This document shows, one piece after another, positions 20,136 through 27,108 of a DNA stretch of 64,000 nucleotides. The stretch spans positions 1,054,001 through 1,118,000 of the forward strand of contig NZ_CP137003.1 of assembly GCF_033110965.1 (NCBI RefSeq), written 5' to 3'. The stretch comes from Raineyella sp. LH-20 (GTDB lineage: Bacteria; Actinomycetota; Actinomycetes; Propionibacteriales; Propionibacteriaceae). How positions within the stretch are numbered: position 1 is the first letter of the stretch; every line of letters starts with the position of its first letter. Under the pieces are notes generated by a model. It did not search any database. It was not told the DNA's origin and saw only the letters and a list, made by a program, of their open reading frames with translations. The position numbers and the translations under genes are program-made.

Positions 20136-21212
20136 TCACCGCGCCAGTCGCACCGGGATCCGCCGCGAGCCGAAATGCCCCGGCGTGGCGGCGAAGCGAC
20201 CCGGGATCACCGTCCCGCAGTCGGGACACCGTCCGTCGGCGGTGAGCCGGTAGCTGCGCAGATCGTACCAATCACGCACGATCAGCGGGGCCTGACAGCC
20301 CGGGCAGAAGGTGGTGTCCCCCTCACGGTGGTGCACGTTGCCGGTGTAGACGAAGTGCAGTCCGGTCTCCAGGGCGATCTCCCGCGCCCGGACCAGAGTC
20401 TCCCGCGGCGTGGCGGGGACGTCCTGCATCCGCCAGTCGGGGTGGAAGGCGGAGAAGTGCAGCGGGACGTCGGGGCCCAGCTCGGCAAGGATCCACCGGG
20501 TCATCGCCCGTAGCTCCTCGTCACCGTCGTTCCGGCCGGGGATCAGCAGGGTGGTGATCTCGAACCATACCGATGTCTCGTGTTTGAGGTAGACAAGCGT
20601 ATCGAGCACCGTCTGCAGGTGTGCTCCGGTGAGCTGCTGGTAGAACTCGTCGCTGAATCCCTTGAGGTCGACGTTGGCAGCGTCCATCACCGCGAAGAGG
20701 TCCTCGCGGGCCCGGCCCTGCACGTAGCCGGCGGTCACCGCGACCGTACGTACGCCGCGCTCACGGCACGCCAGCGCGGTGTCGACGGCGTACTCGGTGA
20801 AGATCACCGGGTCGTTGTAGGTGAAGGCGACGCTCTCGCAGCCGTACGCCTGCGCCGCGAGGGCGAGCTCGGCGGGCGAGGCCTGGTCCATCAGCCGATC
20901 CATCTCCCGGGACTTGCTGATGTCCCAGTTCTGGCAGAACTTGCAGCCGAGGTTGCAGCCGGCGGTGCCGAAGGAGAGCACCGAGGTGCCCGGGTAGAAG
21001 TGGTTGAGCGGCTTCTTCTCGATCGGGTCGACGCAGAAGCCGGACGAGCGGCCGTACGTGGTGAGGACGATCTGGTCGCCCTCCCGCATCCGGACGAAAC
21101 AGAAGCCACGCTGGCCCTCTCGCAGGTGACACTCTCGGGGACAGACGTCGCACTGGAGACGGCCGTCGTCCAGTGCGTGCCAGTAGCGGGCGGGGTGGGA
21201 CGGAGCGGTCAT
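20136..21212 (-). CDS. amrS: AmmeMemoRadiSam-system radical SAM enzyme
   Basis: 358 residues. The cluster motif CNLGCKFC (CxxxCxxC) binds the 4Fe-4S radical SAM centre. An N-terminal zinc-like motif (CDVCPRECHLREGQRGFC) and C-terminal CPGC...CPDC pairs are typical of AmrS, and GFCVDPIEKKPLNHFYPG is a family signature. The start at 21212 has an AGGAGG site; the longer frame is low-complexity. In many genomes AmrS sits with AmrA and AmrB; neither is next to it here. Substrate of the family is not established, though a modification role is proposed from the domain set. Confidence 0.9.
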   Translation of the reverse strand: MTAPSHPARYWHALDDGRLQCDVCPRECHLREGQRGFCFVRMREGDQIVLTTYGRSSGFCVDPIEKKPLNHFYPGTSVLSFGTAGCNLGCKFCQNWDISKSREMDRLMDQASPAELALAAQAYGCESVAFTYNDPVIFTEYAVDTALACRERGVRTVAVTAGYVQGRAREDLFAVMDAANVDLKGFSDEFYQQLTGAHLQTVLDTLVYLKHETSVWFEITTLLIPGRNDGDEELRAMTRWILAELGPDVPLHFSAFHPDWRMQDVPATPRETLVRAREIALETGLHFVYTGNVHHREGDTTFCPGCQAPLIVRDWYDLRSYRLTADGRCPDCGTVIPGRFAATPGHFGSRRIPVRLAR

Positions 21213-21402
21213 CAGGTCCTCCTGCCGAGCACCCCGCCATGTCCGGCCGGCCCCGGAGGGGCCTGGTCCTGCAGCCGGGAGCCACCACCCAGCACATCGG
21301 GGGCGGACGGAGGGATCTCGGGTCGATCTGGGCCGAATTCTACCTGGGGGCCCTCGGGGCCTGGGGCTCTTCGGCAGGCCCGGGCTCTCAGCATGCCCGG
21401 GG

Positions 21403-21508
21403 CTCCTCAGCACTCCGGCGCCCTTCTGCGGGCCGGCTCTCCCGCAGGCCGGGGGCTCCTCAGCACTTCGGCACCCTTCGGCAGACCGGCACTCCCGCAG
21501 GCCGGGAG
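21403..21508. repeat. degenerate 53-bp tandem repeat
   Basis: Two diverged units (21403-21455 and 21456-21508) both begin CTCCTCAGCACT and contain CTCCCGCAGGCCGG. Partial copies flank them (around 21361-21402 and after 21509, TTCTTCAGCATGCC). The drift between units suggests an old, decaying array. Confidence 0.8.
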
Positions 21509-21555
21509 TTCTTCAGCATGCCGTCCCCCCTCCCCAGGCCGGGGCACACCTGGTT

Positions 21556-21615
21556 ATGCGTTGCGCTCATGCACTGGTGTGTGAAGACCAGCACGAACGC
21601 ATGAGCACAACGCAT
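21556..21615 (+). repeat. 60-bp palindromic element, copy 1
   Basis: The left arm ATGCGTTGCGCTCATGC (21556-21572) pairs with GCATGAGCACAACGCAT (21599-21615), one mismatch in 17. The centre holds GAAGAC at 21583-21588. A second copy at 25350-25409 has nearly the same arms but GTCTTC in its centre, so the two copies are in opposite orientation. Confidence 0.9.
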
Positions 21616-21825
21616 GACCGAAACCCAGCGGCGAAGGCACCCGACGAGCCAACCCGACAAATCACCCGACAAACCCACCCGACAAACAGGACCCGCTCAT
21701 GTGGTCAGCGGACCCCAGACGGGTGTCGGTTCGGGCCGCGACGTTCCCCCGGGAACGTTTCAGGCCCCCCGCGGGCAGGCCTCACCTGCTGCTCGGTGTC
21801 CGACAAGAGCCGTCCGCAGACCGTA

Positions 21826-21877
21826 CCCGTCGTACGTATTCCCTACCGGTCGCCCGTGCGGGAACGCGTACGACGGG
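21826..21877 (-). terminator. long-arm hairpin downstream of the disulfide reductase
   Basis: CCCGTCGTACGTATTCCC (21826-21843) pairs with GGGAACGCGTACGACGGG (21860-21877) with 2 mismatches in 18, around a 16-nt loop. It lies about 80 bp past the reductase stop on its 3' side, a plausible terminator of the leftward redox operon. Confidence 0.5.
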
Positions 21878-21880
21878 TTC

Positions 21881-21934
21881 GGTCTGGACGCGGTGCACCG
21901 CTCGGCGGGTCTGGACGCGGTGCGCCGCTCGGCG
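21881..21934. repeat. 27-bp tandem repeat
   Basis: Two copies of a 27-bp unit starting GGTCTGGACGCGGTGC (21881-21907, 21908-21934) differ at one base; a third, broken copy begins at 21935 (GGTCTGGATGCGTAC). It lies just past the 3' end of the disulfide reductase gene. Confidence 0.9.
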
Positions 21935-21959
21935 GGTCTGGATGCGTACGACCGGGACC

Positions 21960-23480
21960 TCAGGTCGTGACCGGGATGATCGGACGTTCGGACCGACCGT
22001 AGGTCTCGAGCAGGCGCAACCAGATCTCGCTGATGGTGGGGTACGCCGGGACGGCGTGCCACAGCCGGTCGATCGTGACCTCGCCGACGATCGCGATCGT
22101 GGCGGAGTGCAGGAGCTCCGCGACGTCCTGACCGAGGAAGGTCGCCCCGAGGATCACCCTGCGGTCCTCGTCGACGACGAGCTTGGCACGGCCCGTGTAC
22201 CCGTCGGCCTGGAGCTTCGCCCCGGCGACCCCGCCCAGGTCGTACTCCACGGTGCGGATGGTGCACCCCAGCCCGCGGGCGCGGGCCTCGGTGAGGCCGA
22301 CGCTGGCGACCTCCGGGTCGGAGAACACCACGTGCGGCACCGCCGCGTGGTCTGCGGTGGCGACGTGGGCACCCCAGGGGACGTCATCGAGCGGCGTGCC
22401 CTGCAAGCGTGCCGCGATCGCCTCGCCGGCGGCGCGGGCCTGGTACTTGCCCTGGTGGGTGAGCAGGGCGCGCCCGTTCACGTCGCCGACGGCGTAGAGC
22501 CAATCCGTGCCGTCGACCAGCAGCGTGTCGTCCACGGTGAGCCGGCCGGCTGCGTCGAGCCCAGCCCTGTCGGAGCCAACCCTGCCGACCCCGACCGGAT
22601 CGAGCCCGACCGGATCGACCCCGACCGGATCGAGCCCGATCGGATCGAGCCCGACCGTGTCGAGGCCCAGATCATCGGTGTTCGGGCGACGCCCGGTGGA
22701 CACGAGGATCTCCTCGGCCTGGACCACGGTGCCGTCCTCCAGGGCGATGCTGACGACCCGGTCTTCGTTGCGGTCCACGCACGTGGGCATGACCCCGAGC
22801 CGCACCTCGACCCCCTCCTCCGCCAGTGCCTCGGCGAGGTGCTCGCCGACGAAGGGCTCCTCGCGGTCCAGCAGCCCGCAGCGGGACAGGACGGTCACCT
22901 GGGAGCCGAGGGCGGAGAAGGCGAAGGCGAATTCGACACCGGCGACCCCGCCCCCGATCACGACCAGTCGCGGCGGCACATGGTCGGCCGCGGCGGCCTC
23001 GCGGGTGCCCCAGGGAGCGGCGGACGCCAGGCCGGGGATGTCCGGGAGCACTGGCACGGAGCCGGTCGCCAGGGCGACCGCCCGGGCAGTGAAGACCTGC
23101 CCGCCGACCTGCACCGCGTGCGCGCCCGCCAGTCGTCCGCGGCCGCGGAGGAGATCGATGCCCGCCGACTCGAGCCAGGCCACCTGGCCGTCGTCCCGCC
23201 AGCCGTCGGTGAACGCCGATCGGCGGGACAGTACGGCGGAGACGTCGATCGATCCCGTCATCGCCTCGCGCGCACCGGCGAGCCGCCGAGCCGCTCGGAC
23301 AGCGTGTCCGCTGCGCAGCAGAGCCTTGGAGGGCATGCACGCCCAGTAGGAGCATTCGCCGCCGACGAGTTCGGACTCCACGATCGCTGCGCGTACGCCG
23401 CGCTTGGCCGCATAGTCGGCGACGTTCTCGCCGACCGGGCCGCCGCCGATGACGATCAGGTCGTAGTCGTACGTACTCAT
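21960..23480 (-). CDS. FAD-dependent pyridine nucleotide-disulfide oxidoreductase
   Basis: 506 residues of the dihydrolipoamide dehydrogenase/mercuric reductase family. FAD site IVIGGGPVGENVA, redox-active pair in GGECSYWACMPSKALL (Cys-x4-Cys), NAD site VVIGGGVAGVEFAF, and second FAD site WLYAVGDVNG. The dimerisation domain is present but lacks the usual His-x4-Glu pair as far as I can see (AVPAYPTISEIW follows WH), so the physiological disulfide is uncertain. An in-frame 15-bp repeat adds GLDPV-type pentapeptides between the NAD domain and the second FAD strand, which makes the protein about 35 residues longer than usual. ATG at 23480 overlaps the upstream DUF308 stop (ATGA). Confidence 0.88.
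   Translation of the reverse strand: MSTYDYDLIVIGGGPVGENVADYAAKRGVRAAIVESELVGGECSYWACMPSKALLRSGHAVRAARRLAGAREAMTGSIDVSAVLSRRSAFTDGWRDDGQVAWLESAGIDLLRGRGRLAGAHAVQVGGQVFTARAVALATGSVPVLPDIPGLASAAPWGTREAAAADHVPPRLVVIGGGVAGVEFAFAFSALGSQVTVLSRCGLLDREEPFVGEHLAEALAEEGVEVRLGVMPTCVDRNEDRVVSIALEDGTVVQAEEILVSTGRRPNTDDLGLDTVGLDPIGLDPVGVDPVGLDPVGVGRVGSDRAGLDAAGRLTVDDTLLVDGTDWLYAVGDVNGRALLTHQGKYQARAAGEAIAARLQGTPLDDVPWGAHVATADHAAVPHVVFSDPEVASVGLTEARARGLGCTIRTVEYDLGGVAGAKLQADGYTGRAKLVVDEDRRVILGATFLGQDVAELLHSATIAIVGEVTIDRLWHAVPAYPTISEIWLRLLETYGRSERPIIPVTT
22589..22663 (-). repeat. 15-bp tandem repeat inside the disulfide reductase gene
   Basis: Five 15-bp units based on CCCCGACCGGATCGA at 22589-22603, 22604-22618, 22619-22633, 22634-22648 and 22649-22663, with one to three changes each. 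In the protein they read as GLDP(V/I)/GVDPV pentapeptides, keeping the frame. Confidence 0.95.
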
Positions 23481-24043
23481 GCCGCCCGCGTCCGCAGCGT
23501 CACACTCAGACGTACGGCCGAGATCAGGAAGAACACCCCGCCGAGGATCGCGTAGCCGGCTGCGCCGGTGATCATCTCCGATCCCTGAAGGCCCTGGAGG
23601 AGGAACGCGCCGCCGGCGAAGACCGAGAGGCCACCGCTGAGCATCTGGGCCACCTGGCCCCCTGCACGGCGGTGACGGATCGCCGCGATGAGTTGCGGGA
23701 TGCCCGCGCCGATCGCCCACACACCCCAGACAGCGAGGGCCGCGCTGACGGACTGCGTCGAGGCCACGCCGAGCGCGACAGCGACGATGACGCTGACGAC
23801 GACGTTGGTCCACTCGGCGGCAGTCGAACGCCCGGCGTCAGGGTCGGCGCGGATCTGCCAGAGCACGGCGGCCGCGTCGAAGAGCGGGTAGACGATCAGC
23901 AGGATCGTCAGCTGCGGGCCGGCCGTGGTCGCGGTGGTGAAGACCAGGCCCGCCCAGACGATGGCGAAGGCGAAGCGGGTGACGTAGAGCCGGCGCAGTG
24001 CCGAGGCGAAGGTCGTCGGGCGGATGGTGGCGGTCGTGGTCAT
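23477..24043 (-). CDS. DUF308-like small membrane protein
   Basis: 188 residues with about six hydrophobic segments (such as FAFAIVWAGLVFTTA, LTILLIVYPLFDAAAVLW, GGAFLLQGL) and charged linkers. It resembles the HdeD/DUF308 family of acid- or stress-related membrane proteins. Start MTTTATIRP at 24043 lies 26 bp after ohr, and the stop overlaps the reductase ATG, so ohr-DUF308-reductase form one operon. Function is unknown; the neighbours suggest oxidative stress. Confidence 0.75.
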   Translation of the reverse strand: MTTTATIRPTTFASALRRLYVTRFAFAIVWAGLVFTTATTAGPQLTILLIVYPLFDAAAVLWQIRADPDAGRSTAAEWTNVVVSVIVAVALGVASTQSVSAALAVWGVWAIGAGIPQLIAAIRHRRAGGQVAQMLSGGLSVFAGGAFLLQGLQGSEMITGAAGYAILGGVFFLISAVRLSVTLRTRAA

Positions 24044-24069
24044 GGCGGTTCTCTCGTTCCTGGTCGCGG

Positions 24070-24501
24070 TCAGGCGACCGTCGTGGTGAGGGTGACAGGG
24101 ACGCTGCCGCGCGTGGCGAGGGAGTAGGGGCACACCTGGTGGGCGGCGGCGACCAAGCCCTCGGCGACGTCCGCGGCGATGCCACCGCCGATGTGCACGG
24201 CCAGCGCGGCGCTGAGCCCGAGGCTGTCGGCGTCGGTCTTCGCGATCGACACCTCGGCGGTCACCGAGGAGTCGACCAGGCGCAGCTTCTGCTGCGAGGC
24301 CACCAGCTTGAGGGCGGAGTGGAAGCAGGACGACCAACCGGCGGCGAACAGCTGCTCCGGGTTCGTCGCCCCGCCGGGGCCGCCCATCGACCTCGGGATG
24401 GCAAGGGCCACGTCGAGCAGACCGTCGTCGGTCACGGCGCGACCTCCGGCGCGGCCGTCTCCGGTGGAGGTCGCGACGGCGGTGTAGAGGGGTGCAGACA
24501 T
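24070..24501 (-). CDS. ohr: organic hydroperoxide resistance protein (Ohr/OsmC family)
   Basis: 143 residues. The two catalytic cysteines are Cys59 in SSCFHSAL and Cys124 in HQVCPYS; the Arg of the active site is in the N-terminal GGRAV segment. Ohr reduces organic peroxides using lipoyl or dithiol donors. A dihydrolipoamide-dehydrogenase-like reductase is encoded two genes downstream in the same operon, a natural electron supply. AAGGAGA precedes the ATG. Divergent from a TetR regulator across a 121-bp region with a palindrome. Confidence 0.95.
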   Translation of the reverse strand: MSAPLYTAVATSTGDGRAGGRAVTDDGLLDVALAIPRSMGGPGGATNPEQLFAAGWSSCFHSALKLVASQQKLRLVDSSVTAEVSIAKTDADSLGLSAALAVHIGGGIAADVAEGLVAAAHQVCPYSLATRGSVPVTLTTTVA

Positions 24502-24535
24502 GGGGGTCTCCTTCTGGTCTGATCGGTGCCGATCA

Positions 24536-24561
24536 ATGTAGAGTTGCTAGTACGTCTACAT
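24536..24561. promoter_or_regulatory. candidate TetR operator between ohr and tetR
   Basis: ATGTAGA (24536-24542) and TCTACAT (24555-24561) are perfect 7-bp inverted arms around a 12-bp centre. A -10-like TATAAG at 24569-24574 for the regulator is just downstream, so a protein bound here could block both divergent promoters. A second palindrome, GATCGG-TG-CCGATC, lies at 24521-24534 on the ohr side. Confidence 0.65.
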
Positions 24562-24622
24562 GAGTGACTATAAGGTGCTGACAGCGCTGGTGCAACCAGC
24601 CCGACAAGAACGGAAGTGGGAC

Positions 24623-25246
24623 ATGCAGGCCGAGGCAGCAGAGCCGGCGACGCGCAGGACGTCGGGATCGGCCACCCGGGCGCGCATCCTCGCGGTCGCG
24701 ACCGAGCTGTTCTACGCCCAGGGGATCCGCGCCACGAGCGCCGACCGGATCATCGAGCAGGTCGGCATCACAAAGGTCACCTTCTACCGGCACTTCCGCA
24801 CCAAGAGCGACCTTGTCGTCGCCTACCTGCAGACACAGGCGGCGGCCGAACAGGTCTGGATGGAGACGTCCCGGCGGCAGGGTGACCCGATCGGCTCGCT
24901 GCGGGAGCTGGCCACCGGAATCGGCTCGGTGAGCTGCCGCCCGGGGTTCAGGGGGTGCGCGTTCATCAACGCCGCCGCCGAGTTCTCCGACCCCGACGAC
25001 CCCGTACGCACGATCATCGACGGCCACCGTCGCTGGATGCTGGACGAGTTCGCCGCCATCGCTGCGGACGCGGGCGTCGACGACGTCGATTCCGCCGCCC
25101 GGCAGTTGATGATCCTGCGCGACGGCGCGATGGTGAACGGCTACCTCGGCGATCCGACCACCGTGGCGGATGCGCTGGCCGACGCCTTCCTGTCCATCGT
25201 GACGGCAGCCGGCGGGGCCGACGATGCCACGTCCGGTCCTGCCTAG
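24623..25246 (+). CDS. TetR-family regulator of the ohr operon
   Basis: 207 residues. The helix-turn-helix is RILAVATELFYAQGIRATSADRI...VGITKVTFYRHF, followed by an all-helical ligand domain. Two cysteines in SVSCRPGFRGCAFIN sit in the segment that begins the ligand domain; the GCAFINAAAEF pattern is common in this TetR subgroup. An ATG at 24560 is possible but would place the start inside the operator, so 24623 is preferred. It faces ohr, DUF308 and the reductase and very likely represses them; the inducer could be a peroxide or its product. Confidence 0.88.
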   Translation: MQAEAAEPATRRTSGSATRARILAVATELFYAQGIRATSADRIIEQVGITKVTFYRHFRTKSDLVVAYLQTQAAAEQVWMETSRRQGDPIGSLRELATGIGSVSCRPGFRGCAFINAAAEFSDPDDPVRTIIDGHRRWMLDEFAAIAADAGVDDVDSAARQLMILRDGAMVNGYLGDPTTVADALADAFLSIVTAAGGADDATSGPA

Positions 25247-25349
25247 CGCTCAAACGCACGCAGCACGTCGGACGGTCGACCTCCGCATCCGAGGCGGATC
25301 CGGCAGACGCCGGCCCGCATCACCGGGCCCGGCGGGACCACATCCAGCT

Positions 25350-25409
25350 ATGCGTTGTGCTCATGCGTTGGTGCGTGTCTTCCAGCACCAACGCATGAGC
25401 ACAACGCGT
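25350..25409 (+). repeat. 60-bp palindromic element, copy 2
   Basis: Left arm 25350-25374 starts ATGCGTTGTGCTCATGCG and pairs with 25385-25409 over 25 bp with one mismatch; the loop is GTGTCTTCCA. The outer 17 bp match copy 1 (21556-21615) apart from one base in each arm, and the loop orientation is reversed. It lies between convergent tetR and fumarase genes and could also terminate both. Confidence 0.9.
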
Positions 25410-25428
25410 CACCGATGGTTCACCGGCG

Positions 25429-27108
<1,680 letters not shown>

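Follow-up and report, generated by a model that had tools for sequence, protein, structure and literature searches.

A dispersed family of long palindromes in Raineyella sp. LH-20 and its association with a solitary Vsr/EDxHD-like nuclease gene

RAYT/REP is the chief known case of dispersed bacterial palindromes with a dedicated enzyme, and its movement is presented as still unexplained in the account of PMC8266576. As outlined there and in PMC3116915, REPtrons (REP/REPIN with RAYT/TnpA-REP) combine dispersed, mostly extragenic palindromes with a dedicated nuclease-type gene that they border, and a genome holds several repeat families, each beside its own gene. As far as these outlines go, the palindromes described here are similar in being dispersed and extragenic (12/12 copies of family F1 are intergenic) and in bordering a nuclease gene of their own, and likewise in forming several families within a genome, each beside its own gene. 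However, the enzyme here is Vsr/EDxHD-like with an AbiEi-type winged helix whereas the REPtron enzyme is of the HUH/Y1 type, and the palindromes are longer (36-88 bp in matched loci), with a bracketing pair that is mostly direct. The closest solved folds to the predicted C-terminus of the nuclease include I-Bth0305I and Vsr, and PMC3943268 describes the former as forming a dimer on a target almost 60 bp long, which is close to the length of the palindromes. Unlike these enzymes, the protein carries an AbiEi-like N-terminus ahead of its catalytic domain, and its gene is flanked on both sides by matching palindromes. The winged helix and middle domain are shared with the AbiEi antitoxin of the type IV toxin-antitoxin system AbiE, but here a nuclease domain follows the AbiEi part, and no partner gene was located between the palindromes in three units inspected. 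Finally, with repeats at its borders, a length of about 1.1-1.3 kb and solo copies at other sites, the unit is reminiscent of MITEs and insertion sequences, from which it differs in that its ends are whole palindromes, often direct, and in that no known transposase domain was present in 20 homologues. Word searches in a library of open-access papers retrieved none that connects such nucleases to dispersed palindromes.

The window examined is a stretch of 64,000 nucleotides from Raineyella sp. LH-20, in which a repeat search identified a pair of repeats at 21534-21621 and 25328-25415. The hairpin energies of the two palindromes, folded on all four strands, ranged from -41.5 to -53.3 kcal/mol (z -7.0 to -10.3), and none of 200 shuffles per strand was as stable for any of the four. 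A 17-nt arm core was found four times in the window with up to 3 mismatches, twice per copy, compared with a shuffle mean of 0.69. The two strong palindromes recognized in the sequence-only reading are thus real by both repeat search and folding, and span 68 bp in the family alignment rather than about 60 bp (Table 1). The alignment also bears out that their loops are opposed. Since only the loop gives the palindrome a direction, and by our reading of the alignment seven of the 12 genomic copies point one way and five the other, the opposed loops of this pair carry little weight. Tandem repeats similar to the D2 units next to copy 1 were observed near other F1 copies too.

Table 1. Features in and around the palindrome-bracketed block (window coordinates)
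Feature	Position	Strand	Evidence
Three tandem 53-nt units (family D2) adjoining copy 1	21391..21549	.	Repeat search
F1 palindrome copy 1, loop GAAGAC	21552..21619	+	Repeat search, folding, family alignment
Pyridine-nucleotide-disulphide oxidoreductase	21960..23480	-	Pfam PF07992 and PF02852
Membrane protein, weak DUF308 match	23477..24043	-	PF03729, 21.7 bits (Pfam cut-off 25)
Ohr-family peroxiredoxin (Ohr-type OsmC protein)	24070..24501	-	PF02566; TIGR03561, 152.7 bits (cut-off 88.85)
TetR-family regulator	24560..25246	+	PF00440
F1 palindrome copy 2, loop GTCTTC	25346..25413	-	Repeat search, folding, alignment; 15 bp from fumarase stop
Fumarase, right neighbour	25429..27108	-	Profile match; conserved in the three congeners

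The sequence-only reading had interpreted the pair as bracketing one redox cassette. A search of the full 3.63-Mb genome showed instead that the element belongs to a dispersed family, F1, of 12 strong copies, all located between genes according to the gene calls, and that pairs are not confined to the redox block: another pair, 1.2 Mb from the window, brackets a single gene for a Vsr-like nuclease. Five of the 12 copies were located between convergent genes and one between divergent genes, and most of the 12 were 100-400 bp from a stop codon. BLASTN searches in relatives recovered F1 in 0/56, and a 22-nt core pattern had no exact match in genome_contigs or viral_contigs, collections from which the own and near genomes may be left out. 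Among the matches listed for the closest congener, G002, related palindromes were present at 19 places. Compensatory changes in the F1 alignment were not above those in shuffles (257/500 reached the paired percentage), and covariation as proof of an RNA hairpin was rejected, as was a known RNA, with no match in Rfam.

The F1-bracketed nuclease gene (unit A) is located at 2274587-2275516 in the genome, between F1 copies at 2274255 and 2275697, and encodes a protein of 310 amino acids with an AbiEi-type winged helix, an AbiEi-like middle part and a C-terminal Vsr/EDxHD-like nuclease domain. This C-terminus is predicted to adopt an EDxHD/Vsr-like nuclease fold, the best structural comparisons of the model being to the I-Bth0305I catalytic domain (Z 12.1), NGO0050 (Z 11.6) and Vsr (Z 10.5), while residues 6-195 were similar to the AbiEi antitoxin (PDB 6y8q, Z 11.7; PADLOC AbiEi model, E 1.3e-14). 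Among 20 aligned homologues, PF13338 (AbiEi_4) was matched in all and DUF559 in 12, and the C-terminal nuclease residues were conserved. A RAYT partner for F1 was rejected: the genome contained 0 matches to PF01797 (Y1_Tnp) at E 0.001, and the homologues match AbiEi and DUF559 models. By gene calls the nuclease gene is free-standing, and it was the single gene between the palindromes in unit A of G000 and units A and B of G002; the interior of these three units, to which the check for an AbiEii partner was confined, contained none.

Nuclease matches at E 1e-20 were obtained in 34 of 149 genomes of the phylum, the own genome included. Carriage by plasmids or phages was rejected, with no match in the plasmid collection and one partial match in the phage collection. 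Another homologue, nuclease B, occurs at a single locus shared by G000, G001 and G002, where it is flanked by repeats on either side; its dN/dS values are 0.16-0.19. In the own nuclease B unit, an extra segment of about 1.9 kb with two ORFs is located between the gene and the right palindrome, indicating that DNA can enter such units.

In the Actinomycetota, many homologues lie between two matching repeats, which are usually long palindromes and differ in sequence from locus to locus. Ignoring palindromicity, 64 of 100 loci had matching repeats on both flanks (23/30 in the order sample, 41/70 in the genome_contigs set), as compared to 4/600 mismatched controls; two of the 102 loci were dropped for short flanks. 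The phylum sample yielded 15 of 26 after omission of 4/30 loci (the own copy L212 and the short L222, L223 and L230). The 36 loci that failed include seven of the order sample, among these the own units L110 and L133, whose palindromes are located outside the flank lengths used. A strong gene-side palindrome was present in 68 of 100 loci with enough flank, leaving out L161 and L198 with short flanks, and matched the opposite flank (score 16 or more) in 47 of these, compared to 4/816 mismatched flanks; in the phylum sample only 8/30 loci passed this test. Control genes from element-rich loci, excluding those shorter than about 400 nt or close to a locus end, scored in 3 of 309 cases, all three being the nuclease itself, and in 0 of the 306 others. 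Not all loci are independent: L118 is identical to L162, and L175 and L188 agree to 96%.

The usual anatomy, given as medians over 56 matched loci, is a 48-bp palindrome, 93 bp, the gene, 32.5 bp and a second palindrome, with the flanking pair direct in 42 loci, inverted in 11 and tied in 3. Related palindromes were found elsewhere in six of the genomes searched (G000, G002, G006, G041, G044 and G038), at 8, 11 and 8 dispersed places in G041, G044 and G038, respectively, and with at least 4 inspected copies sharing a common core in G006. In one genus with 6 genomes, a nuclease of at least 63% identity is present in every one of the three many-copy genomes, and the nuclease was missing (E 1e-30) from the genome with a single place and from one of the two zero-copy genomes. 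In G050, which has three homologues, the G041 palindrome was absent, and for two of these homologues no palindrome was seen near the gene.

The related units L127 and L129 align only from one terminal repeat of about 43 bp to the other, and their flanks are unrelated. The own F1-bracketed unit is located within about 1.76 kb where G002 has about 45 bp. This empty site contains no palindrome, so insertion into a pre-existing palindrome was not seen there, and the inserted stretch runs about 120-130 bp past each palindrome. In the G002 counterpart the insertion is not clean: 2.9 kb that include two additional genes stand against 38 bp. By eye, no target duplication was recognized at the own unit compared with G002 or at L127/L129. 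In some species groups, flanking copies stay alike within a unit while diverging between species: repeat identity within Phycicoccus units at shared-flank loci was 0.98, 0.93 and 0.90 (and 0.74) as compared to 0.44-0.78 for same-side repeats between species, and L127/L129 yielded 0.96 within and 0.78-0.82 between units. L120/L248, the nuclease B trio, L185/L187 and L175/L188 gave no sign of such concerted change.

Could the redox block itself be a mobile cassette that the two F1 palindromes delimit? Profile searches confirm that exactly the reductase, DUF308, ohr and TetR genes are enclosed, with the DUF308 match below threshold; no NCBIfam equivalog cut-off was reached for the oxidoreductase among the matches listed. 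The four genes are absent at this locus in 3/3 congeners, where the corresponding intervals have no listed match to the block, so it was either gained here or lost there. This part of the moved-cassette interpretation stands, and the opposed loops and the extra DNA in the own nuclease B unit are in line with it. However, the palindromes are dispersed, and the chance that two of 11 independent F1 sites lie this close is 0.106. On the left, homology to G002 stops at 21208, or at 21283 if another 41-bp match is counted, which leaves about 270-340 bp to the palindrome; on the right it reaches the end of the fumarase gene. At the place of copy 2, G002 has a palindrome of a related family between the ends of the same two convergent neighbours without the block; at the place corresponding to copy 1 no palindrome was seen. 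Furthermore, none of 76 plasmid records that match parts of the block covers 80% of it. We thus consider the cassette quite unlikely and the bracketing by F1 probably incidental; in this view the block was gained separately, at a locus that varies, and breaks at such sites may have contributed.

An operator function, where an AbiEi-type winged helix autoregulates its gene via palindromic operators, the dispersed palindromes are its regulon and the nuclease domain takes no part in their spread, would account for AbiEi_4 in all aligned homologues and for the position of the upstream palindrome, and protein and operator might co-evolve. We nevertheless find it unlikely: a matching copy is located about 33 bp behind the gene as well, sites between convergent genes suit operators poorly, the arms, at 48-68 bp, would be long for such a role, the nuclease residues are conserved, and the ends of the moved unit (L127/L129) coincide with the repeats. 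Terminators or RNA-stabilizing hairpins that happened to multiply, carried by the nuclease gene as by other genes, would agree with the very stable hairpins and with copy 2 just behind the fumarase stop, where the congeners G002 and G003 also have hairpins. However, the T-run of an intrinsic terminator was not found behind any of the 12 copies by eye, and a scan of 21300-25600, allowing loops of 3-8 only, returned 0 terminator-like sites. The copy between divergent genes, the distance of most copies from stops and the lack of matching hairpin brackets around other genes in the same loci (0/306) also speak against this explanation, which we regard as very unlikely. These results and the lack of an Rfam match also speak against the suggestion that terminators close both ends of the redox module; the F1 copies do not behave as a common terminator at most operon ends.

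The best explanation as a whole, which we think is probably correct, is that F1 and the solitary nuclease gene between two palindromes of its own make up a two-part system, in which F1 is the dispersed repeat, and that the two palindromes in the window are solo copies. Our preferred reading of the association is a REP/RAYT-like system on an unrelated nuclease, for which cutting, spreading and homogenizing are inferred. The protein, possibly dimeric with a winged helix on each arm, would recognize its cognate palindrome and cut in or close to its asymmetric centre. If the break is repaired from a different copy, the repeats would become homogenized, and occasionally a palindrome, or an entire unit of palindrome, gene and palindrome, might be copied elsewhere. 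More tentatively, and with somewhat less than even confidence, we suggest an undescribed class of bacterial selfish element: a solitary Vsr/EDxHD-type nuclease with an AbiEi-derived DNA-binding part would lie between direct copies of a long palindrome that it cuts, would seed REP-like palindromes across the genome and, through cutting and repair, would convert them so that they stay uniform.

Another enzyme with such repeats, unrelated to RAYT, would allow the spread and persistence of short palindromes to be tested in an independent case. It would also suggest a role for a widespread actinobacterial protein group filed under AbiEi or DUF559 in family libraries. If the selfish element is confirmed, the REP-type lifestyle would have arisen more than once, from unrelated nucleases.

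Both palindromes that the sequence-only reading had placed around a redox block in the window (G000:C1:1054001-1118000, on the single contig of the 3.63 Mb genome) were present and folded far better than shuffled sequences, and they enclosed all four named genes (disulfide reductase, DUF308, ohr and TetR). The genome-wide search that it had suggested, run here with BLASTN and a covariance model, yielded 12 strong places, which constitute family F1. Since only 138 first-look candidates were scored per genome, place counts from the covariance model are lower bounds; the F1 model gave 17 weaker places in addition, which by inspection represented a longer family F2 (11) or a third family (3), or were left unassigned (3). 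All 29 places were intergenic according to our own gene caller. The F1 copies were located between tandem (6), convergent (5) and divergent (1) genes. None of the 11 F2 copies was located between convergent genes. Within the coding sequence of the reductase gene (window 22562-22672) we also observed a run of near-identical short repeats of the GATCGAGCCCGACCG type.

Palindrome families and the nuclease B unit in the Raineyella sp. LH-20 genome (G000)
Feature	Location	Description
F1 palindrome, copy 1	window 21552-21619	68 bp in family model
F1 palindrome, copy 2	window 25346-25413	68 bp in family model
Family F2	L058, L068, L069, L075-L082	~100 bp, imperfect palindrome, 11 copies
Third palindrome family	130482, 1845931, 3359563 (L070, L071, L073)	core CATTCGTTCGTGG, at least 3 copies
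Nuclease B unit	L245 4717-7871 (genome 2393716-2396870)

The flanks of the redox locus aligned at ~90% to the closest congener, G002, in which window 21208-25424 was replaced by ~1.5 kb with other genes, presumably including a VapBC-like pair, and with a palindrome of that genome's own family near the fumarase end. In the congeners G001 and G003, the aligned flanks were separated by ~7.2 and ~8.4 kb of different DNA, in which no match to the block was listed. The locus therefore varies, and among the four genomes compared the block is specific to G000.

The other close F1 pair (2274255 and 2275697) encloses a single gene, coding for a nuclease with matches to the AbiEi_4 winged helix and to AbiEi in PADLOC. 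In the structure model (mean pLDDT 88.6), residues 6-195 resembled an AbiEi antitoxin and residues ~195-299 resembled I-Bth0305I, NGO0050 and Vsr. Acidic and histidine residues in the C-terminal domain were invariant across 20 sequences, and 12 of 20 homologues matched DUF559. Homologues in G002 (65%, at a different genome place) and in G006, from another genus (41%), were likewise located between two palindromes of their own genomes.

To quantify the bracketing, we gathered 30 nuclease loci from an order sample and 72 from GTDB species genomes, 100 of which had enough flank. A palindrome scoring at least 12 was found within 300 bp in 68 of the 100, and the opposite flank matched (score at least 16) in 47 of these, as compared to 4 of 816 mismatched flanks. 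A repeat test ignoring palindromicity was passed by 64 of 100 nuclease loci versus 4 of 600 controls; only 3 of 309 control genes from element-rich loci scored, all three being the nuclease itself. Bracketing of the gene by repeats is thus far above controls. In a phylum sample, 15 of 26 passed the repeat test and just 8 of 30 the palindrome test. The anatomy of 56 matched loci was stereotyped, with 42 direct, 11 inverted and 3 tied repeat pairs; the F1 unit of G000 has an inverted pair and is among the looser ones.

Related palindromes are dispersed. BLASTN gave no F1 match in any of 56 relatives; the covariance model listed 19 related places in G002, differing from F1 in stem sequence, and further places in G006. 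Five intergenic sites had a palindrome in G000 and G002 alike; the palindromes aligned well at two of these sites (L060/L087 and L074/L085), at the former with differences in both arms. The palindrome next to the G041 nuclease gene occurred at 8, 11 and 8 places in G041, G044 and G038, and at none in G047 and G035 (E 0.01). In a six-genome comparison of G041's genus, G053 had one palindrome place without the nuclease and G056 had neither. G050 lacked the G041-type palindrome but encoded three nucleases that are less closely related, and a separate repeat pair accompanied one of these. No nuclease was found adjoining the third family in G000. By eye, palindrome apices in several families often carried a short asymmetric motif (for example GAATGAC, GTAGTC, GAGTTC or CTATGAC). 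Tandem repeats are common in F1-bearing intergenic regions (window 21391-21549 and other copies), being present in 10 of 11 such regions of at least 250 bp versus 10 of 29 without elements, but as F1 regions are longer on average, this association, perhaps from break repair, is only a hint.

Several observations hint that the units move and that their repeats become homogenised. Presence and absence were observed at the level of the whole unit: the same two features are separated by ~1.76 kb in G000, with the F1 unit, versus ~45 bp in G002, and the nuclease had no homologue at the corresponding locus in G001 and G003. Units L127 and L129 were ~81% identical from one 43-bp terminal repeat, itself just an imperfect palindrome, through to the other, with no convincing similarity beyond. 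In Phycicoccus units with shared flanks, repeat identity within units was 0.98, 0.93, 0.90 and, in one, 0.74, and that of same-side repeats across species 0.44-0.78; this pattern was absent from four other unit groups. Nuclease B, a second such gene, is shared by G000, G001 and G002 at a single locus, where repeats flank it on either side (dN/dS 0.16-0.19). The repeats are close to the gene in G001 and G002; in G000, the gene and its right repeat are separated by ~1.9 kb of DNA that has entered the unit and contains two ORFs (194 and 303 aa). By eye, the ORFs look lipoprotein-like and secreted. The palindrome next to the nuclease B gene is similar to F2.

If the palindromes were the regulon of the winged helix, or terminators, parts of these observations would be explained, but neither alternative explains both the copy that follows the gene and the ends of the unit. 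We favor a REP/RAYT-like system with an unrelated nuclease, which would recognize and cut the palindrome, the latter then possibly being copied via repair. A long symmetric palindrome fits a dimeric protein, and I-Bth0305I is reported to form a dimer on a target of nearly 60 bp (PMC3943268).

In its working the system is REPtron-like (PMC8266576, PMC3116915). However, no Y1_Tnp match was obtained in the G000 genome at E 0.001, and since the HUH/Y1 enzyme test thereby failed, we rejected membership and do not class the system as a REPtron. If the nuclease were shown to move the repeats, the system would form a separate class.
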